6,503 bases of DNA from Clostridia bacterium (GTDB lineage: Bacteria > Bacillota_A > Clostridia > Christensenellales > Aristaeellaceae): assembly GCA_009783365.1 (NCBI GenBank), contig WRHG01000103.1, positions 1 through 6,503 of the forward strand, written 5' to 3'. The position numbers and the translations under genes are program-made. Position 1 is the stretch's first letter. Every line of letters begins with the position of its first letter. This document shows, in pieces, positions 1-6,503 of this stretch. The notes below the pieces were generated by a model that made no database searches, was not told the origin of the DNA, and saw only the letters and a program-made list of their open reading frames with translations.

Positions 1-206
1 TATCAATAATCGAAACTGCATGGAAATTCATCCTGGATGGAGGTTCCGTTTCTCAAGAGCCATCAAGATCGACAGTATCGGCGGGGGGCAGCCCTCCCAC
101 ACCCAAGACCCGCTGCAAGCGACGACGCGATCTCACGAAACGGCGGAAAGAGGCAGTGATGTGTATTGATATACGGGCAAGCAAGATCCCGGTTTGCCTA
201 AAGCAT
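1..206. other. Region after the operon, no supported gene or clear terminator
   Basis: No reading frame here has both a start with a ribosome binding site and recognisable content. A plus-strand frame is open from the window edge to a stop near 170 and could be the end of a gene lying to the left. Its translation is rich in Ser, Arg and Gly and matches nothing I know. Just past the mtnA stop, a weak 5-base stem (GGCAA 176-180 with TTGCC 194-198) is not followed by a T run on the minus strand. It is therefore not a convincing intrinsic terminator, and transcription may run on or stop by another means. Confidence 0.4.
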
Positions 207-1304
207 TCACATCTTATGCAACTCACTATCGGCAAACTTCTTTTGAAAGATCGTCTTCAAACTTTGGGTATACGGCTGCCGCGCGATGCCATATTCCGTT
301 ATGATTGCCGTAATCAGCTCGTTGTCGGCAAAATCAAAGGCGGGGTTATACACCTTCACACCTTCAGGCGCCATTGGCTGCTTGTACCACATCTCCGTCA
401 CCTCATGGGCCGGGCGCTCCTCAATGGGGATGTCCTTACCCCGCTGAACTTTCATGTCGATGGTGGAGGTGGGCGCGCATACATAAAACGGAACACCATA
501 ATACCTTGCCAGGATGGCTACGCCTGAAGTCCCTATTTTGTTACAGCTGTCGCCATTGGCTGCCACCCTGTCACAACCTACAAAGATGGCTTGCACCCAG
601 CCGTTCTTCATAACCTGGGAGGCCATGTTATCGCAGATGACGGTGGTGTCCACGCCGTTGGACGCCAATTCAAACGCGCTTAACCGAATGCCTTGCAACA
701 GCGGCCGCGTTTCATCCGTAAACACCTTAAAAGTATAGCCCCGCTCCCTTCCCAGGTGAATGGGGGCAAGGGCTGTTCCATATCTGGCCGCAGCCAATTG
801 TCCCGCGTTGCAGTGTGTTAAAATTCCGTCCCCGTCCTTCACCAGTGACAAACCGTATTCACCGATCATTTTACAGACCCAAATGTCCTCTTCTTTGATG
901 CCCGCGGCTTCGTTATAAAGCCGTTTTTTAATCTCATCCACGCTTTGGCCCGAACTCCGCAGCACCACGTTTTCCATGCGGTCCAGGGCCCAAAACAGAT
1001 TCACTGCCGTAGGGCGCGCCGAGGCAAGATATTCCTTCGCCTTTCTGAACTGTCCGCAAAAAACATCGTACTGGTCGGTCTGAATGGCTTTGGCCGCAAG
1101 GTATATGCCGATGGCCGCCGCTACGCCGATAGCGGGCGCTCCTCGCACTTTCAGCAGGTAAATAGCTTCCCAAATATCCCTTTGGCTGGTCAGGCTGAGT
1201 ATCTCCGCCTGTCCCGGCAGCTTGGTTTGGTCCAGAATCAGCAACGCGCTTCCGGCGTCGTCCAGCGCTACGGTTTCGTAACTCATAATACTTTTGCTGC
1301 TCAT
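207..1304 (-). CDS. mtnA: S-methyl-5-thioribose-1-phosphate isomerase
   Basis: This 365-residue enzyme of the MtnA / eIF2B-like family converts 5-methylthioribose 1-phosphate, or 5-deoxyribose 1-phosphate, to the matching ribulose 1-phosphate. Diagnostic motifs are KVRGAPAIG (52-60), THCNAG with catalytic Cys165 (163-168), DETRP (197-201), the CDNMAS segment (224-229), and GCDRVAANGD with catalytic Asp245 (243-252) followed by NKIGT (255-259). A PFYVCAPTST strand (272-281) and an NPAFD block (320-324) complete the core. The length is close to usual (about 350), with a short charged C-terminal tail. AAAGGAG (1314-1320), 9 bases before ATG 1304, supports the start. It is the last gene of the operon that I can see. 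In methionine salvage MtnB would follow, but here the aldolase at the head of the operon takes its product. Confidence 0.95.
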   Translation of the reverse strand: MSSKSIMSYETVALDDAGSALLILDQTKLPGQAEILSLTSQRDIWEAIYLLKVRGAPAIGVAAAIGIYLAAKAIQTDQYDVFCGQFRKAKEYLASARPTAVNLFWALDRMENVVLRSSGQSVDEIKKRLYNEAAGIKEEDIWVCKMIGEYGLSLVKDGDGILTHCNAGQLAAARYGTALAPIHLGRERGYTFKVFTDETRPLLQGIRLSAFELASNGVDTTVICDNMASQVMKNGWVQAIFVGCDRVAANGDSCNKIGTSGVAILARYYGVPFYVCAPTSTIDMKVQRGKDIPIEERPAHEVTEMWYKQPMAPEGVKVYNPAFDFADNELITAIITEYGIARQPYTQSLKTIFQKKFADSELHKM

Positions 1305-1325
1305 GGCGGGCCGCTCCTTTCACGA

Positions 1326-2543
1326 TCACTGGGACAATTGGGCTGCCTCTGCGGCGCGGTGGACCGCCGCCACAAAGTCCGCTCCCTTGCTAAATCTGTC
1401 GGCGTGCATGATGAAGTCCTTGGCGCACAGAATATTCACGCGTTCAGCATATATCCGCTTGGCCTCATCCGCTATGGTGGTCACATCCTTCACCTGCGCC
1501 ATGCCCACCGTTCGGCGGATCAGTTCCGTGCCGGCATAGGAGGCGGTATCCACCAAAACGGAAGAAAGGTAAAGCTCCTTAAAGCCCTTCACCTTGGCCA
1601 TTGGCTCGGTTGCCCACCGGTCAAACGCCTTAAGAAACTTTTCGCAGAACAGATCCGCCGTTTCCTCAATGGTTTTGAGCACCCAAGCGCAAAAATCAGC
1701 CGCGCCGTAAGCCGTTCCGTGGTCCCATGCGAAAATCAAGTTGGCGATCACATTTCCCACATCATAACCGATCGGTCCATAGAAAGCGAATTCCGGATCA
1801 AACACGCGGGTGCTTTTTTCCTTCACGAAGATAGAACCCGTATGCAAATCGCCATGAATCAGTGCTTGCGCATTATTCATGAAGTCAAATTTCAATTTTG
1901 CGACTCGCAGATGCAGGTCCCGGTCTTCATACAGCTCCTTTTTCACAAACTCCGCATTCGGCGGAAACACAAGATTGCGCCGCTGCAAATCGATATAGGG
2001 TTCCGTGAGCACCAAATCTTCGGTAATTTCACAGAGTTCCGGGTTGATAAAGCTCTTCACCAAAGCCTTCTTGGCTTTATGCTCCATCGCCACGTCCGTG
2101 GTTGCAAGAAGCGTATTCACCATATAAGTGGTGACGTCATCCGCAAAAAGCGGAAAAATCTTATGCTTCATCAGCGCGTAACGCATCAGTTCATAGTCGG
2201 ACAAGTCCTCCATCACACAAGCGCACATCACGGTATCGTATCCATAAATGATGGGTACCAGTCCGGGCGCATACTGTCCCTGTAACAGTAGAATTTCACT
2301 CTCAATGCGATTCCGGTCGGTGGAAACCTTCATATCGGCCGAGATACGCAGTTCAACTCCAGCCTGTTTGACAATCACGGCTTTGCCGGTTCTTTCATCC
2401 GCCACGCGGAACACATAATTGAGGTTGCCGTCGCCAATCTCCTTGGATGTCAACACAGCATCCTCCGGCACGTATCCCTTCACCTTCACATATTCCTGAA
2501 CATCCGAAGTTTTCATCAGAAAATAGGTATCAAAACGACACAT
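1326..2543 (-). CDS. mtnK: S-methyl-5-thioribose kinase
   Basis: This 405-residue enzyme uses ATP to phosphorylate C1 of 5-methylthioribose, and in related systems 5-deoxyribose, in the cytosol. It has the eukaryotic-kinase-like fold of MtnK. Visible are the nucleotide loop EIGDGNLNYVF (35-45), Lys59 in the VKQ strand, the hinge MEDL (111-114), an NPELCEIT block (167-174), the catalytic loop HGDLHTGS (230-237, Asp232), the metal-binding DPE (249-251) with FAFYGPIGYDVG after it, and ELIRRTVG (340-347), whose arginines line the sugar site. The length is normal for the family. ATG 2543 is chosen because AGGAGG (2555-2560) precedes it by 11 bases. The next ATG, at 2516, has no ribosome binding site. 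The gene is followed after 21 bases by mtnA, the next enzyme in the pathway. Confidence 0.95.
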   Translation of the reverse strand: MCRFDTYFLMKTSDVQEYVKVKGYVPEDAVLTSKEIGDGNLNYVFRVADERTGKAVIVKQAGVELRISADMKVSTDRNRIESEILLLQGQYAPGLVPIIYGYDTVMCACVMEDLSDYELMRYALMKHKIFPLFADDVTTYMVNTLLATTDVAMEHKAKKALVKSFINPELCEITEDLVLTEPYIDLQRRNLVFPPNAEFVKKELYEDRDLHLRVAKLKFDFMNNAQALIHGDLHTGSIFVKEKSTRVFDPEFAFYGPIGYDVGNVIANLIFAWDHGTAYGAADFCAWVLKTIEETADLFCEKFLKAFDRWATEPMAKVKGFKELYLSSVLVDTASYAGTELIRRTVGMAQVKDVTTIADEAKRIYAERVNILCAKDFIMHADRFSKGADFVAAVHRAAEAAQLSQ

Positions 2544-2577
2544 AGTTAAGCCTTCCTCCTTAATTACAACTCATTGG

Positions 2578-3294
2578 CTATCGAAATTCAATGCTCCGGT
2601 CATCCATCGGATCAATTTGCTGCAACGCCCGCAGTTCCTCGCGGGTAGGCGGTTGGGTGGTAACCAGGGATAGGTACCGGATCGGGAATGATGTATTGCG
2701 TGAAACCTCCTCTAAGCTGGATGAGGGGTGAATGCTTCGCAATATTAACTCTCCCTGATACATGGTGAAGATACAAAGCGGCGTCACAATCTCGCTGACA
2801 TTGCCGCGCGCGGTCACGAAATCCAACGTTTCCGTAAACGTGCGCCTGTCATGCTTGGTGCGCCAGATTACGGCGCGTTTCGCAGTCGATATCAGCACGG
2901 CGCTCCCGGCGCCTCCAGGCAGGCGCACCTTGGGCTTGTGATAATCGCCGATCACTGAGGCGTTTACGCCGCCGCGATGGTCAAATTGTACGCCGCTAAA
3001 AAACGCCACATCCAGTCCGCCGCGCATGCTGAGATCAAATACTTCCGCCAGGGGGTATGCAGCCTCCGCTGTTTGCCACAGCGACTCCCCCGCGCTGGTA
3101 AAGCTCTGCGGTCTTGGCTGATACGGGTCTACACCGCCGGGGATGTTCAGGTGCACGGCATTTGGAGCGTGCATGGCCTTCGCCAGCAGGATTGAGATCA
3201 TCGGCATGTGAGAGCTCACTCCATGAAAAACCGTTTCTCCATCTCGAATAAGGCGCGCCATGCTGACCGTCATGACATCACCGGGTCTGAGCAT
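2578..3294 (-). CDS. CoA-transferase-like subunit B (family I beta type), catalytic Glu apparently missing
   Basis: This 238-residue partner of the preceding subunit has a beta-subunit layout. It includes a HAPN segment (42-45), a RGGLDVAFFSGVQFD block (91-105), a V-N-x-SVIG-Y block (110-118), a PKVRLPGGAGSA oxyanion-type glycine loop (121-132) and a DFVTARGN block (158-165). In family I transferases the catalytic glutamate that forms the CoA thioester lies a few residues after HAPN, usually in a Tyr-Glu-x-Gly context. Here that position reads Asn-Ile-Pro-Gly (50-53), with Ile51 where Glu is expected. The protein may therefore be a CoA-dependent hydrolase or C-C lyase like IpdAB rather than a transferase, or may use another acid (inference from memory of the family, not an alignment). 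It lies 34 bases before mtnK. Confidence 0.82.
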   Translation of the reverse strand: MLRPGDVMTVSMARLIRDGETVFHGVSSHMPMISILLAKAMHAPNAVHLNIPGGVDPYQPRPQSFTSAGESLWQTAEAAYPLAEVFDLSMRGGLDVAFFSGVQFDHRGGVNASVIGDYHKPKVRLPGGAGSAVLISTAKRAVIWRTKHDRRTFTETLDFVTARGNVSEIVTPLCIFTMYQGELILRSIHPSSSLEEVSRNTSFPIRYLSLVTTQPPTREELRALQQIDPMDDRSIEFR

Positions 3295-3295
3295 A

Positions 3296-4090
3296 TCACC
3301 GCCTCCTTTGCAGCCAGGCATCCAACTCGTCAACTGTGCTTAGGGCCTTAAAGGACCGAAGCGCGTCGTCCCCAACACCGTAGGCGTGATAACAACTGCC
3401 AGGCCACGCGCCACGCGGCGCATGTACTACGGCGCTCACCAGGAAATGCGGAATATCCGCTTTTGTTTCACTGGCAACGAAGTAACGATCACCTACAATG
3501 CGCTCCGCCGTAATGATCACCGTTTCCGAGGCACGGGACAGGAGCAAGTCGTCGTACTTGGGTCCCTCAATGAGTGCATTGCCGCGTTCATCGGCGATGT
3601 GCGCATGAATGATGCTTACCTGCGGCCGGATCGCCTTGACGGCATGAAGCCTTTCGCCGGTAAACGGATCGTCTACGACAGCGAATGCGTCGTTAACGGT
3701 GGTCAAATCGGTCTCCGTCAGTCCACGCACGGGGATAAAGGGGATCCCATAGCTCGCCGCGCGCAGGGCGGCTATCACTGTGTAGCAGGAATGCTCGTTC
3801 ATCCGAACATTTCCCGCCTGAACGGCTTTGCGAAAGTGCTGGCAAAGAGAATACTCGGTTTCATAGCTGATGAAAGCGGCGTCTGTGCTTGTAACGCATC
3901 CAGCGAAGCAAAGCAGGTCCACGTCCATGCCGCCGGCGGTCTTTACCAGCCTGAGGTCCCGCTTTTTCTGGCGGGCCAATTCCATTACGGCAGTCATCGG
4001 CGCGCGGTTCAGGGTATTGCCGCCAATCCCCAGCAGCGTTCCATCCGAGACGGCTTGCACCGCTCGGGAGAGGTCTTCCAACTTCTTCAT
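3296..4090 (-). CDS. CoA-transferase-like subunit A (family I, glutaconate CoA-transferase alpha type)
   Basis: This 264-residue protein has the features of family I CoA-transferase alpha subunits. They are a glycine-rich GIGGN near the N-terminus (21-25), a conserved Glu99 in NEHS just before the helix leading to PFIPVRG (117-123), an IHAHIADERGNA segment (161-172), and an APRGAWP-SCYHAYG stretch near the C-terminus (224-238). Family members move CoA between acids, but the related steroid-ring enzyme IpdAB uses the same fold as a hydrolase. The gene starts 51 bases after the flavoprotein stop, with only a weak GAGG sequence in front. The next gene's ribosome binding site lies within its last codons, so the two subunits are translationally coupled and probably form one complex. 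The substrate cannot be told from sequence. The family assignment is firm. Confidence 0.85.
   Translation of the reverse strand: MKKLEDLSRAVQAVSDGTLLGIGGNTLNRAPMTAVMELARQKKRDLRLVKTAGGMDVDLLCFAGCVTSTDAAFISYETEYSLCQHFRKAVQAGNVRMNEHSCYTVIAALRAASYGIPFIPVRGLTETDLTTVNDAFAVVDDPFTGERLHAVKAIRPQVSIIHAHIADERGNALIEGPKYDDLLLSRASETVIITAERIVGDRYFVASETKADIPHFLVSAVVHAPRGAWPGSCYHAYGVGDDALRSFKALSTVDELDAWLQRRR
3302..3307 (-). promoter_or_regulatory. AGGAGG ribosome binding site of CoA-transferase-like subunit B, inside subunit A
   Basis: A perfect AGGAGG on the minus strand sits 7 bases before ATG 3294 and within the final codons of subunit A, whose TGA (3296-3298) is one base from that ATG. This decides the start of subunit B against a TTG at 3333 in the same frame. 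It also implies translational coupling and near-equal production of the two subunits. Confidence 0.85.
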
Positions 4091-4141
4091 CGCCTCGCCT
4101 CATTTCCGCGCAAATAGCGTTTCCGCTTCGCCGTATAGGCT

Positions 4142-5473
4142 TTACTTGGCGGCATTCGCCGCGATGTGTACGGGGTCCCACACTGTGGCAAAGGGCGGTG
4201 CATATGCCAAATCTACCGTGCCAAGCTGCGCGGTTGTCATCCCGTCGTGAATCGCCGTCGCGAAGGTGTTCCCGCGGAGTACGGCGCCTTTTACCCCGGC
4301 GATATTCGCGCCCAACAACCGTAACGTACGCTTCTCATACAGCAGTTTGATGGTCAGTTTTGTAGGGTCCGGGTAGTAGGGCGGATGGTCCATTGCGGTC
4401 ACCAGTTTTGTATCATAAGCAACACCCATGCGGCGGGCGTCCGCCTCGCTGAGTCCTGTGCGCATCATCTCCAAACCGCAAACCTTGATAGCCGTGGTGC
4501 CCAGCGTTCCTTCAAACGTCTCAAAGCCGCCCGCCATATTGGCGCCGGCAATACGGCCGCATTTATTGGCAACAGTTCCCAGCGGCAGAAAGCAATCCTC
4601 CCGCGCAACACGATGCCAGCACACGGCGCAGTCTCCCGCCGCAAAAATATCCGATATGCTGGTGCGCTGCCGGCGGTCCACCGACAGCGCTCCATTGCGC
4701 GACATCTGCAGGCCTGTGTCCCTCAGAAATTCCGTAGCCGGTACAATGCCCACCGCCACCAGCACAATATCCGCAGAACTTTCATCGCGGCTGGTTCGGA
4801 CCAGACGGTGGTCCCCCTCATCGGTGATGGCGGTCAACCGCCCTCCCAACTTCACAGTGATGCCCTGGCGCTCCATCTCCTGCGCCGCCAGCTCGGAAAA
4901 CTCGGGTTCAAATGAAGTCAGCAACCTCTCGGCGGCCTCCAGCACCGTTACGCGTTTTCCTAGATTTCGCATCACATCGGCCATTTCCACGCCAATACAT
5001 CCTCCGCCGACAATCGCCACATGGTCTACGCCCGGCAGATGAACCACTTTTTGAAGCAAAATCCCTTCTTCCATGGTTTTCACATGGAAAACGGAAGGTA
5101 TATCCGATCCTTTTACTTTGGGTACCGCGCTCTGGCCGCCCACGCCGATCATCAGCCTGTCATAATCATCCCAAAAAACATCTCCGTTTTCATGGTTTTT
5201 AATCTGAATTCGCTTGGCTGCCACATCCACCCGTAGCGCTTCATGGCGCAGGCGGGTACGTATCCCCGCCCGGTCATACTGCTCCTGCGTACGGGCAATC
5301 AGCTTGCCCGGATCGGCGGTAAATCCGCCGATCAAATAGGGCAGCCCGCAAGCGCCATAAGACAAATAATTCCCTTTTTCATAAACGGTCACCTCGGCGT
5401 CCGGCCGCATGCGCTTCAATTTAGATGCAGCGCTCATGCCGGCGGCCATGCCCCCCAGTACGATTGCTTTCAT
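4142..5473 (-). CDS. FAD-dependent pyridine nucleotide-disulfide oxidoreductase (CoA-disulfide reductase / NADH oxidase / persulfide reductase family)
   Basis: This 443-residue flavoprotein has an N-terminal FAD-binding Rossmann motif (GGMAAG, 7-12, then a conserved helix to Arg21). The single redox cysteine Cys42 sits in a YGACGLPY motif where CoA-disulfide reductases and NADH oxidases carry theirs. An NAD(P)H-binding GGGCIG lies at 156-161, the second FAD motif AAGDCA at 278-283, and a C-terminal dimerisation domain ends in a DLAYAPPF segment (421-428) typical of the CoA-disulfide/persulfide reductase branch. There is no C-terminal rhodanese domain. Expected reactions are NAD(P)H-driven reduction of CoA disulfide, a persulfide, or O2. 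The frame extends upstream to a TTG at 5521 inside the aldolase gene, but ATG 5473 begins the first beta strand and follows AGAGG, so it was chosen. It lies 25 bases after the aldolase stop. Its partner or substrate in this operon is unknown. Confidence 0.85.
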   Translation of the reverse strand: MKAIVLGGMAAGMSAASKLKRMRPDAEVTVYEKGNYLSYGACGLPYLIGGFTADPGKLIARTQEQYDRAGIRTRLRHEALRVDVAAKRIQIKNHENGDVFWDDYDRLMIGVGGQSAVPKVKGSDIPSVFHVKTMEEGILLQKVVHLPGVDHVAIVGGGCIGVEMADVMRNLGKRVTVLEAAERLLTSFEPEFSELAAQEMERQGITVKLGGRLTAITDEGDHRLVRTSRDESSADIVLVAVGIVPATEFLRDTGLQMSRNGALSVDRRQRTSISDIFAAGDCAVCWHRVAREDCFLPLGTVANKCGRIAGANMAGGFETFEGTLGTTAIKVCGLEMMRTGLSEADARRMGVAYDTKLVTAMDHPPYYPDPTKLTIKLLYEKRTLRLLGANIAGVKGAVLRGNTFATAIHDGMTTAQLGTVDLAYAPPFATVWDPVHIAANAAK

Positions 5474-5498
5474 GAGCCTCTTGCCACACCTCTGATCC

Positions 5499-6350
5499 TT
5501 ATTGATTCTTGATTCTATCAATCACTTGCTGCGTAATCCTCCGCACATCCATCTCGCTCTGCGCACGATCGCCCGTGCAGCCGCATTCTTCTTCCAAAAG
5601 CGGCGAAACAGCCGCCTGCGAATGGCCTACCACCACATCCTCCGTATTTGTGGGTCGTGGGGCGCAAGTTGGAACACCCCCCGATGTAATACCCATCTTC
5701 GTGCGGATCCCCACCAATTCATTCACCTGCTCGCAGCTTAAAACATTTGCCCTTCCAATAATATTGCCAGTATACATGATCACCAGCGCATAGTGCTCCG
5801 TCGCTTCCAGCCGGTACCATGCTTCCATCAGCGAGCTTCCCCAGGCGACAGCGCCATGGTTTGCCAGAAGCAGCGCATTGTAATCACGCGCATAGGGAGC
5901 GATTGAATCAGGAATTCCCTGGGTTCCGGGCGTTTCATAATGTATACACGGCACAGTCCCCAAATTCACCAGCGCCTCTGGGTAAATCGCCCTATCCAGA
6001 CCAATCCCCGCAATGGCGAAAGAGGTGCTGATAGGCGGATGCGCATGGCATACGCCCATAGCTTCCGGGTTTTCCTGGTAAATACGCAGATGCATTTTAA
6101 CCTCGCTGGACGGGCCGCTTTCCCCCTGTGAAAGAACCGTTCCGTCCATGCGCATCTTTACCAGCATCTCCTCGGACATAAATCCTTTGGAAACGCCTGT
6201 TGGGGTTGTCCAAACGATGTCGTTGTCCACCTTGCAGCTGATGTTTCCATCGTTGGCGGCTACAAAATTTTTGATGTACATTCGTTTACCGACTTCGATA
6301 ATCAGCTTTTTCGCCTCATGGTCGGTCGGGTACTTGCGGATCGTTTGCAT
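5499..6350 (-). CDS. Class II (zinc) sugar-phosphate aldolase, probable 5-deoxyribulose/5-methylthioribulose 1-phosphate aldolase
   Basis: This 283-residue protein belongs to the class II aldolase/adducin family (L-fuculose-phosphate aldolase type). Visible in order are a phosphate-binding GNIS (35-38), TPTG (49-52), Ser81-Ser82, the catalytic acid Glu83 aligned with FucA Glu73, the zinc ligands His102 and His104 (HAHP), and a third zinc ligand His165 (ANHG). These residues match aldolases better than the related MtnB dehydratase. In the operon it would cleave the ribulose 1-phosphate made by MtnK and MtnA to dihydroxyacetone phosphate plus acetaldehyde or methylthioacetaldehyde (inferred from context). 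It is about 65 residues longer than FucA. The extra C-terminus holds a Pro/Gly-rich linker, a Cys-Gly-Cys (256-258) and a predicted amphipathic helix (about 267-281). It is cytosolic, with no signal peptide. Class is certain; exact substrate is not. Confidence 0.88.
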   Translation of the reverse strand: MQTIRKYPTDHEAKKLIIEVGKRMYIKNFVAANDGNISCKVDNDIVWTTPTGVSKGFMSEEMLVKMRMDGTVLSQGESGPSSEVKMHLRIYQENPEAMGVCHAHPPISTSFAIAGIGLDRAIYPEALVNLGTVPCIHYETPGTQGIPDSIAPYARDYNALLLANHGAVAWGSSLMEAWYRLEATEHYALVIMYTGNIIGRANVLSCEQVNELVGIRTKMGITSGGVPTCAPRPTNTEDVVVGHSQAAVSPLLEEECGCTGDRAQSEMDVRRITQQVIDRIKNQ

Positions 6351-6355
6351 ACATA

Positions 6356-6361
6356 CCACCT
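6356..6361 (-). promoter_or_regulatory. Ribosome binding site AGGTGG that fixes the aldolase start
   Basis: On the minus strand, AGGTGG lies 5 bases before the ATG at 6350. Two upstream in-frame ATGs (6368 and 6365) are preceded only by an A- and T-rich run with no purine-rich Shine-Dalgarno sequence. In addition, the first of these would place the AGGTGG motif inside the coding region. The start at 6350 is therefore preferred. Confidence 0.65.
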
Positions 6362-6373
6362 GCATCATTTTGT

Positions 6374-6385
6374 TTTGTAAACAAA
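6374..6385. repeat. 12-base palindrome TTTGT-AA-ACAAA
   Basis: The five-base half-sites TTTGT and ACAAA are exact reverse complements around a two-base centre. The palindrome lies in the untranslated leader, between the predicted transcription start and the ribosome binding site of the aldolase gene. Its size and place are those of a transcription-factor half-site pair, but the surrounding DNA is AT-rich, so chance is not excluded. It overlaps the left arm of the larger inverted repeat. Confidence 0.4.
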
Positions 6386-6420
6386 TGTTCTGTTTATATA
6401 AATAACAAACCGATGTTTAC
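6377..6420. promoter_or_regulatory. Inverted repeat in leader, candidate operator pair
   Basis: The 7-base arms GTAAACA (6377-6383) and TGTTTAC (6414-6420) are perfect inverted copies separated by 30 AT-rich bases. The right arm lies at the predicted transcription start and the left arm 27 bases before the aldolase start. The left arm is inside a tighter 12-base palindrome, TTTGT-AA-ACAAA (6374-6385). The right arm is part of a looser dyad, AACA-6-TGTT (6404-6417). The position just downstream of the -10 box suits two repressor sites. A stem in the mRNA is the alternative, though 7 AT-rich pairs with a 30-base loop would be weak. No regulator gene is in the window, so the binding protein is unknown. 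Confidence 0.5.
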
Positions 6421-6427
6421 TTCTGTA

Positions 6428-6456
6428 ATTATAGTGCCAAGCCCTGTCATTGTCAA
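6428..6456 (-). promoter_or_regulatory. Consensus sigma-A/sigma-70 promoter of the operon
   Basis: Read on the minus strand, a perfect -35 hexamer TTGACA (6451-6456) is followed by a 17-base spacer and a perfect -10 hexamer TATAAT (6428-6433). The predicted start of transcription is near 6421, giving a leader of about 70 bases before the aldolase start at 6350. It is the only strong promoter I found, and it lies upstream of the first gene, so it probably drives all six genes. A full-consensus promoter would be strong if unregulated. The inverted repeats that begin at about +1 therefore suggest control by a repressor (inference). Confidence 0.9.
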
Positions 6457-6467
6457 TGTGGAATCCC

Positions 6468-6490
6468 GCAAAAAACATCCGAATTTTTGC
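6468..6490. repeat. AT-rich inverted repeat upstream of the -35 box
   Basis: The arms GCAAAAA (6468-6474) and TTTTTGC (6484-6490) are perfect 7-base inverted copies around 9 bases. They lie about 47 to 69 bases upstream of the predicted transcription start. A and T tracts at this place could act as an UP-like element or bind an activator. On the minus strand the element could also be the remains of a weak terminator for a gene outside the window. The evidence is only position and symmetry. Confidence 0.25.
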
Positions 6491-6503
6491 TTGCATTTAT
6501 GAA

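Follow-up and report, generated by a model that had tools for sequence, protein, structure and literature searches.

A probable microcompartment locus for the dihydroxyacetone phosphate shunt in Clostridia, with a conserved three-gene accessory module

The six genes on a 6,503-nucleotide stretch of DNA from a Clostridia bacterium (Aristaeellaceae; contig WRHG01000103.1, positions 1 to 6,503; the whole of this stretch is called the window below) are, in our assessment, quite probably the enzyme core of a bacterial microcompartment (BMC), specifically a metabolosome, locus that runs the dihydroxyacetone phosphate (DHAP) shunt on a 5-deoxypentose. In order, they encode a class II aldolase, a coenzyme A (CoA)-disulfide-reductase-like flavoprotein, the alpha and beta subunits of a CoA-transferase-like pair, MtnK and MtnA. 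The clustered MtnK-type kinase, MtnA-type isomerase and class II aldolase of the DHAP shunt are thus all present, with three further genes interposed. A preliminary description of the window had read these DHAP-shunt genes and the three extra ones as a single functional unit, and their recurrence together in many genomes bears this out; it had missed the BMC context of the relatives and the shell-targeting type of the aldolase tail.

Results

Conservation of the gene set and linkage to shell genes

We identified 660 homologous proteins in a search with the alpha subunit, the closest of which, among the 120 of these matches listed, were 88% identical (P0002 and P0003, both on longer contigs). 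An alignment of the window alpha and 27 homologues retrieved 50 loci from a species-genome collection, which by record title are mostly from Clostridia, with one Chloroflexi and one Spirochaetales metagenome-assembled genome (MAG) among the rest. Gene presence in these relatives was scored by tblastn with reference proteins (at least 40 bits), rather than by full annotation. The flavoprotein, alpha and beta genes follow one another in this order, uninterrupted by any other reference gene, in all 47 loci that hold all three, and every locus of at least 18 kb (34 of 34) contained these genes and the aldolase together with an aldehyde dehydrogenase and a PduL-type phosphotransacylase. MtnK or MtnA was found in 33 of the 34 long loci, the sole exception (L046) being a stretch that begins 300 bases before its aldolase. 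The gene set therefore recurs in many genomes; confinement to a single one was the outcome that the preliminary description had set against its own reading. Its suggestion that the C2 aldehyde would be processed further as a CoA thioester is likewise favoured, because all 34 long relatives carry the aldehyde dehydrogenase and PduL. A sample of 391 genomes of the class, searched with alpha, gave eight matches: one close homologue, in the genome of L016 and already known, and seven distant members of the CoA-transferase family (best E 3e-48, 30-38% identical).

Shell genes lie within the stretch in 32 of the 34 long loci, and in the remaining two (L004 and L032) BMC-domain genes were found on the same contig, approximately 11 kb from the alpha gene, bringing the total to 34 of 34. 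Searches with Pfam identified BMC, EutN_CcmL, PTAC, Aldedh, Fe-ADH and Dak1/Dak2 proteins in L016, and PTAC, Aldedh, an RnfC/PduS-like protein, BMC-T, LacI and EutN_CcmL in L001/L002. Both aldehyde dehydrogenases tested passed PRK15398 (653 and 659 bits, cut-off 403), which we take to be the EutE/PduP type.

Two main layouts were found among the relatives. The window-like layout begins with a divergent ATP-binding cassette (ABC) transporter cassette, followed by the aldolase, flavoprotein, alpha and beta genes and then by mtnK, mtnA, PduL, aldehyde dehydrogenase and shell genes, with the cassette placed instead between beta and mtnK in some loci. The Lacrimispora/Hungatella-type layout, a composite from which individual loci may miss members, consists of mtnK, mtnA, a divergent DeoR gene, aldolase, aldehyde dehydrogenase and shell genes, and then of PduL, a pentamer gene, flavoprotein, alpha, beta, an iron-type alcohol dehydrogenase (Fe-ADH), DhaK and DhaL. 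The six-gene set singled out in the preliminary description is accordingly real but incomplete, since the locus of the relatives adds a phosphotransacylase, an aldehyde dehydrogenase and shell genes.

We additionally observed several features of these loci. Genes for the dihydroxyacetone kinase subunits DhaK and DhaL recur beside this DHAP-producing pathway (clusters in 21 and 19 of the 50 loci, respectively; for example L016:12860-14530 and L023:12768-14486). In Lacrimispora-type loci, a solute-binding-protein-like gene (SBP_bac_1; L016:7496-8605 and L027:7489-8622), with no signal peptide recognised by eye, precedes the flavoprotein, and such a gene also adjoins the aldolase in L083 and L087, where the aldehyde dehydrogenase is absent. 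In Lacrimispora celerecrescens 152B, the PduL-type gene (L023:6548-7203) is split across two frames, with 9 stops if read in one, representing either a sequencing error or a pseudogene.

Distribution of the module in a sample chosen by aldolase

An aldolase alignment was searched against 392 genomes of the order to which the genome of L037 belongs, and 91 matched at E <= 1e-50. Of the 18 genomes with an aldolase at E <= 2e-106, 17 have MtnA beside it and 13 an aldehyde dehydrogenase; at the next 12 aldolase loci fetched (42-50% identical), MtnA adjoins in none, DeoR in nine and an aldehyde dehydrogenase in five. The alpha search covered 26 of the 91 genomes, comprising all 18 of the former and 8 of the other 73. 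Alpha was present in 12 of the 13 genomes with an aldehyde dehydrogenase beside the aldolase, in none of the five without one, and in none of the eight with a distant aldolase; in the single genome of the 13 that lacks it (G579), the contig ends at the flavoprotein. In the 12-18 kb around the aldolase of the five genomes that have no adjoining aldehyde dehydrogenase, we found no match to shell, PduL, flavoprotein, alpha or beta genes, and one of these five (G731) is also without MtnA beside its aldolase.

As judged from gene content, the flavoprotein-alpha-beta module thus goes with the shelled form of this route and not with the DHAP shunt as such, given its distribution (12 of 13, none of five, none of eight) and the lack of both shell genes and an aldolase tail in the five. 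These counts are not corrected for relatedness, and the sample is not independent of the 50 loci selected by alpha, because several genomes occur in both. The distant aldolase group is presumably GRM5-like, and this label fits at most seven of the eight genomes, since one (G560) has neither DeoR nor an aldehyde dehydrogenase beside its aldolase.

The class II aldolase and its C-terminal tail

The aldolase gene (5499..6350, minus strand; Pfam Aldolase_II) encodes 283 residues from the ATG at 6350, within a reading frame open to an ATG at 6368. Metal- and base-type residues (Glu89, His108, His110 and His171, in the numbering of the 289-residue form) are invariant in all 42 sequences compared. 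A role in classical methionine salvage, as an MtnB-like dehydratase, was considered and rejected (TIGR03328, 77 bits, cut-off 137); MtnW, MtnX, MtnC and MtnD were not recognised in the window, nor by eye among the recurrent neighbours in relatives.

The C-terminal helix of the protein (5508..5561, minus strand) is a probable BMC encapsulation peptide. In an AlphaFold model of the window aldolase, residues 247-270 form a disordered linker (predicted local distance difference test score, pLDDT, below 50), followed by a helix at residues 270-287 with block means of 77-83; a terminal helix behind a flexible linker, as looked for in a metabolosome signature enzyme, is therefore predicted on the window's own protein. 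The tail is present in BMC-linked relatives and absent in the five aldolases without an adjoining aldehyde dehydrogenase (L083-L087). By eye, its motif ITQxVxxRI/L resembles the N-termini of aldehyde dehydrogenases of the relatives (ITEDILRSL in L002 and ITDDIVREL in L012). Within the window itself, the modelled tail, with a helix like that of a shell-targeting peptide, probably points directly to encapsulation.

The linker before the tail additionally contains a CGC motif (ECGCTG, window 5577-5585), a possible metal or thiol site; CGC or CSC was counted by eye in the aldolase tails of 32 of 41 relatives.

MtnK, MtnA and the likely substrate

MtnK, a 5-methylthioribose / 5-deoxyribose kinase (1326..2543, minus strand), passes TIGR01767 with 401 bits (cut-off 275), and MtnA, a 5-methylthioribose-1-phosphate / 5-deoxyribose-1-phosphate isomerase (207..1304, minus strand), passes TIGR00512 with 397 bits (cut-off 279). 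The Bacillus DHAP-shunt trio is described, in passages of PMC6079011, as turning 5-deoxyribose into DHAP and acetaldehyde. The divergent ABC cassette in the loci of the relatives is consistent with uptake of a free sugar, and 10 of the 50 loci have a gene from a cluster in which the member tested is RbsD_FucU (for example L014:16956-17381), a mutarotase family whose presence suggests that the free sugar is used. In the 31 neighbour clusters common to at least 4 of the 50 loci, many of them named by eye, with representatives checked against Pfam, we recognised none for an isomerase or kinase of fucose or rhamnose.

The flavoprotein and the CoA-transferase-like pair

The flavoprotein (4142..5473, minus strand; 443 residues from the ATG at 5473) is an FAD/NAD(P)H-type, CoA-disulfide-reductase-like protein. 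It passes PRK09564, the CoA-disulfide reductase model (497 bits, cut-off 458), and retains the active-site Cys42 in 48 of 50 aligned sequences, the other two having gaps, with Tyr366, Tyr367 and Tyr424 in all 50. The label given in the preliminary description is supported by these results, though the protein fails TIGR03385 (392 bits, cut-off 579). It resembles CoA-disulfide reductases of known structure (5l1n, and 3cgb, presumably from Bacillus anthracis) in its single active-site cysteine, in SYGACGLPY, and its C-terminal tyrosines, and differs from them in genetic context. NADH oxidase was rejected as first choice (NOXase_Strep, 254 bits, cut-off 600); an alanine stands at the position of His10 in NADH peroxidase/oxidase.

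The alpha subunit (3296..4090, minus strand) is AibA/IpdA-like, with invariant Glu99 and Cys102, and the beta subunit (2578..3294, minus strand) comprises 238 residues from the ATG at 3294, within a frame open to a TTG at 3333. Both are Pfam CoA_trans proteins, and the best structural matches of alpha are the AibA/AibB decarboxylase and the IpdAB hydrolase, members of the glutaconate CoA-transferase family that, like the pair in the window, have the two-subunit CoA-transferase fold without the catalytic Glu. The position of Glu54 of GctB was located in beta through AibB mutants and through a GctB-like homologue, and that of Glu105 of IpdA was set by comparing the E105A entry 6coj with 6co6. 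The Glu54 position, which corresponds to Cys56 of AibB, is Ile in all 49 beta subunits compared, so that the beta Glu of type I CoA transferases and the beta Cys of the AibAB decarboxylase are both missing; IpdB has Gly57 here. In alpha, the invariant Cys102 aligns in sequence with, and stands in place of, the catalytic Glu105 of the IpdAB hydrolase. In passages of PMC5380842, IpdAB, which is without Glu54, showed no observed transferase activity. Thus, the reading as a CoA-transferase-like pair holds for the fold, but not for the transferase reaction, and the pair is, on these residues, probably not a CoA transferase.

Gene spacing and promoter of the window

The six open reading frames are intact, all on the minus strand, and span 6368 to 207. 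With the best-supported starts (ATG at 6350, 5473 and 3294 for the aldolase, flavoprotein and beta, picked by eye from ribosome-binding sites), the intergenic gaps are 25, 51, 1, 34 and 21 bases. Upstream of the aldolase lies a sigma-70 promoter, TTGACA-17-TATAAT (6428..6456, minus strand), which matches the consensus in 12 of 12 positions and is the only site in the window scoring above 9 of 12; five promoter-like sites were found in total, against 5.4 expected from shuffles, the other four scoring 9. The same strand, the spacing of 1 to 51 bases and the single strong promoter given in the preliminary description are therefore all as stated. By eye, comparable hexamers occur upstream of the aldolase in the 17 relatives compared.

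An imperfect inverted repeat (6363..6415, 23-nucleotide arms, 74% complementary) between the promoter and the aldolase start is possibly an operator, and repeats rich in GTTTA/TAAAC were seen by eye at a similar location in several relatives. An Rfam search of the window gave no match.

Comparison with published systems

The DHAP shunt clusters mtnK-mtnA-ald2 of Escherichia coli ATCC 25922 and drdK-drdI-drdA of Bacillus thuringiensis share the kinase, isomerase and class II aldolase with the window, and many of the relatives carry a DeoR-family regulator, as passages of PMC12632272 imply for E. coli MtnR. They differ in that the window has an aldolase with a shell-targeting-type tail and a three-gene accessory module, and in that the loci of the relatives carry shell, aldehyde dehydrogenase and PduL genes.

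Among BMC loci, the nearest published counterpart is the PVM-like type, which is retained in passages of PMC8217296 and shares the PVM aldolase; its substrate is expected, in passages of PMC8156839 that also name Hungatella hathewayi, to be similar to that of PVM (fucose, rhamnose). PVM-like loci occur in Firmicutes including Hungatella (passages of PMC4207490, PMC8217296 and PMC8156839), as do our Lacrimispora/Hungatella-type relatives, one of which (L035) is a Hungatella MAG. Because of the shared aldolase, the naming of H. hathewayi and the origin of L035, these loci probably belong to the published PVM-like type, short of proof. The same three sources, in the passages available, do not mention MtnK, MtnA, the flavoprotein or the pair, and the window-like layout differs from PVM-like loci in having LacI, BMC-T and a PduS-like protein instead. 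The GRM5 fucose/rhamnose microcompartment (PMC4207490, in part) likewise has a class II aldolase and a DeoR regulator, and five of six distant aldolases compared also carry a tail; the presumed GRM5-like loci are set apart by their divergent aldolases, the absence of adjoining MtnA and the absence of alpha in the counts given above.

In the main texts of the openly licensed PubMed Central (PMC) literature, we found, among the papers listed, no substantive report joining a microcompartment with methylthioribose, 5-deoxyribose, the DHAP shunt or drdA, nor any paper uniting methylthioribose kinase, CoA transferase and class II aldolase; the preliminary description had known of no account of the six-gene set, and none came to light. 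An exception is an mtnK next to the pdu cluster of Acetobacterium woodii, termed unrelated to BMC function in a passage of PMC7593272. By listing alone, one review on alpha-glucan enzymes matched microcompartment and pathway terms, and CoA-disulfide reductase and microcompartment co-occur in one review.

Discussion

We propose that MtnK would phosphorylate 5-deoxyribose (or 5-methylthioribose) at C1, that MtnA would isomerise the sugar 1-phosphate to the ketose 1-phosphate, and that the aldolase, brought into the shell by its C-terminal peptide, would cleave this to DHAP and acetaldehyde (or methylthioacetaldehyde). Within the shell, the CoA-acylating-type aldehyde dehydrogenase, PduL, and the Fe-ADH or PduS-like RnfC-family protein encoded in the loci of the relatives would convert the aldehyde to acyl-CoA, acyl-phosphate and alcohol; shell genes would be expected beyond the window in its own genome. 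The flavoprotein and the pair would form a fixed accessory module of this shelled version, in which alpha and beta may be an AibAB/IpdAB-type enzyme acting on an acyl-CoA, and the flavoprotein may reduce a CoA disulfide, persulfide or mixed disulfide.

Several observations weigh against this proposal. The shell, aldehyde dehydrogenase and PduL genes are absent from the 6.5-kb window, which stops 206 bases past mtnA, and no PduL start was found in those bases (1-206), where L001-L003 have PduL directly. Because alpha was used to choose the 50 loci, they do not tell whether it is rare elsewhere. The best NCBIfam match of the aldolase is 3-oxo-tetronate 4-phosphate decarboxylase, well below cut-off (116 bits, cut-off 250). 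The hydrophobic moment of the aldolase helix is not significant (0.07 of shuffles reach its value), and those of the N-termini of two PduL proteins are far from it (0.68-0.69), with 0.04-0.05 for two aldehyde dehydrogenases, values in relatives being biased upwards by the choice of the best 18-mer; taken together, these moments are weak evidence either way. Family models cover the flavoprotein, MtnK and MtnA nearly end to end, and the AibA/IpdA fold covers alpha, so that these four proteins show no targeting tail and the accessory module may act outside the shell. With regard to substrate, the mutarotase of the relatives best matches L-fucose mutarotase (133 bits, cut-off 141) and their Fe-ADH lactaldehyde reductase (425 bits, cut-off 523), both of which would also suit a 6-deoxyhexose, and a PfkB-family sugar kinase cluster is found in 5 of the 50 loci.

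One alternative is that the accessory module takes off the methylthio group by reduction, as a new reductive demethylthiolase inside or beside the BMC. Its substrate would be methylthioacetyl-CoA made from 5-methylthioribose. The pair, with Cys102 and an AibAB-like enolate site, would transfer the sulfur of this thioester to a thiol, so that acetyl-CoA remains, and the flavoprotein would reduce the resulting methyl-CoA mixed disulfide to methanethiol and CoA. Such a role would suit the fixed adjacency of an acyl-CoA-type protein and a CoA-disulfide-reductase-like one in all 47 loci, the invariant Cys102 at the IpdA Glu105 position, and the confinement of alpha, in the sample selected by aldolase, to genomes with an aldehyde dehydrogenase that might make methylthioacetyl-CoA. 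We nonetheless consider it unlikely, as no methionine-synthesis gene was recognised by eye among the recurrent neighbours and 5-deoxyribose is the simpler substrate. If true, the DHAP shunt would have a branch that salvages sulfur independently of oxygen and without the need for a nitrogenase-like enzyme.

A second possibility is that the organism of the window, having lost the shell genes found in its relatives, runs the DHAP shunt in the cytosol only. The contig has no shell gene, and PduL does not follow mtnA; the gene cluster downstream of mtnA may be rearranged relative to L001-L003. We regard this loss as distinctly unlikely, as the window aldolase retains the targeting-type tail that is absent in the five aldolases without an adjoining aldehyde dehydrogenase, and the window retains the module that tracks the shelled version. 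It is equally doubtful that alpha and beta form a true CoA transferase by which another acid would take over the CoA of the acyl-CoA product: the fold would allow for this reading, but the catalytic Glu position is Ile throughout, AibAB bears the title of a decarboxylase, and no transfer was seen with IpdAB (passages of PMC5380842). Least probable of all, and very improbable, is that the BMC substrate is a 6-deoxyhexose (fucose or rhamnose), with MtnK and MtnA as incidental neighbours or acting on another sugar. This agrees with the substrate expected for PVM-like loci in passages of PMC8156839 and with the below-cut-off mutarotase and Fe-ADH matches, but not with the finding of MtnK or MtnA in all but one of the 34 long loci, with MtnA beside 17 of 18 close aldolases and none of the 12 distant ones fetched, or with the absence of recognised fucose or rhamnose isomerases and kinases from the neighbour clusters.

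The DHAP shunt and the compartment are each already known; what is new in the proposal of a shelled DHAP shunt is their union, the unusual pair, and the likely reassignment of this BMC type to another substrate. If it is true, BMCs of gut, rumen and other anaerobic Clostridia, whose probable published type had been expected to use fucose- or rhamnose-like substrates, would gain a different, testable one, namely 5-deoxypentoses derived from radical S-adenosylmethionine (SAM) and polyamine by-products. The DHAP shunt would also be housed in an organelle, the handling of its toxic aldehyde by these fermenters would be explained, and biochemistry would have as a target a three-gene CoA/sulfur module that is strictly conserved and has an unusual active site.

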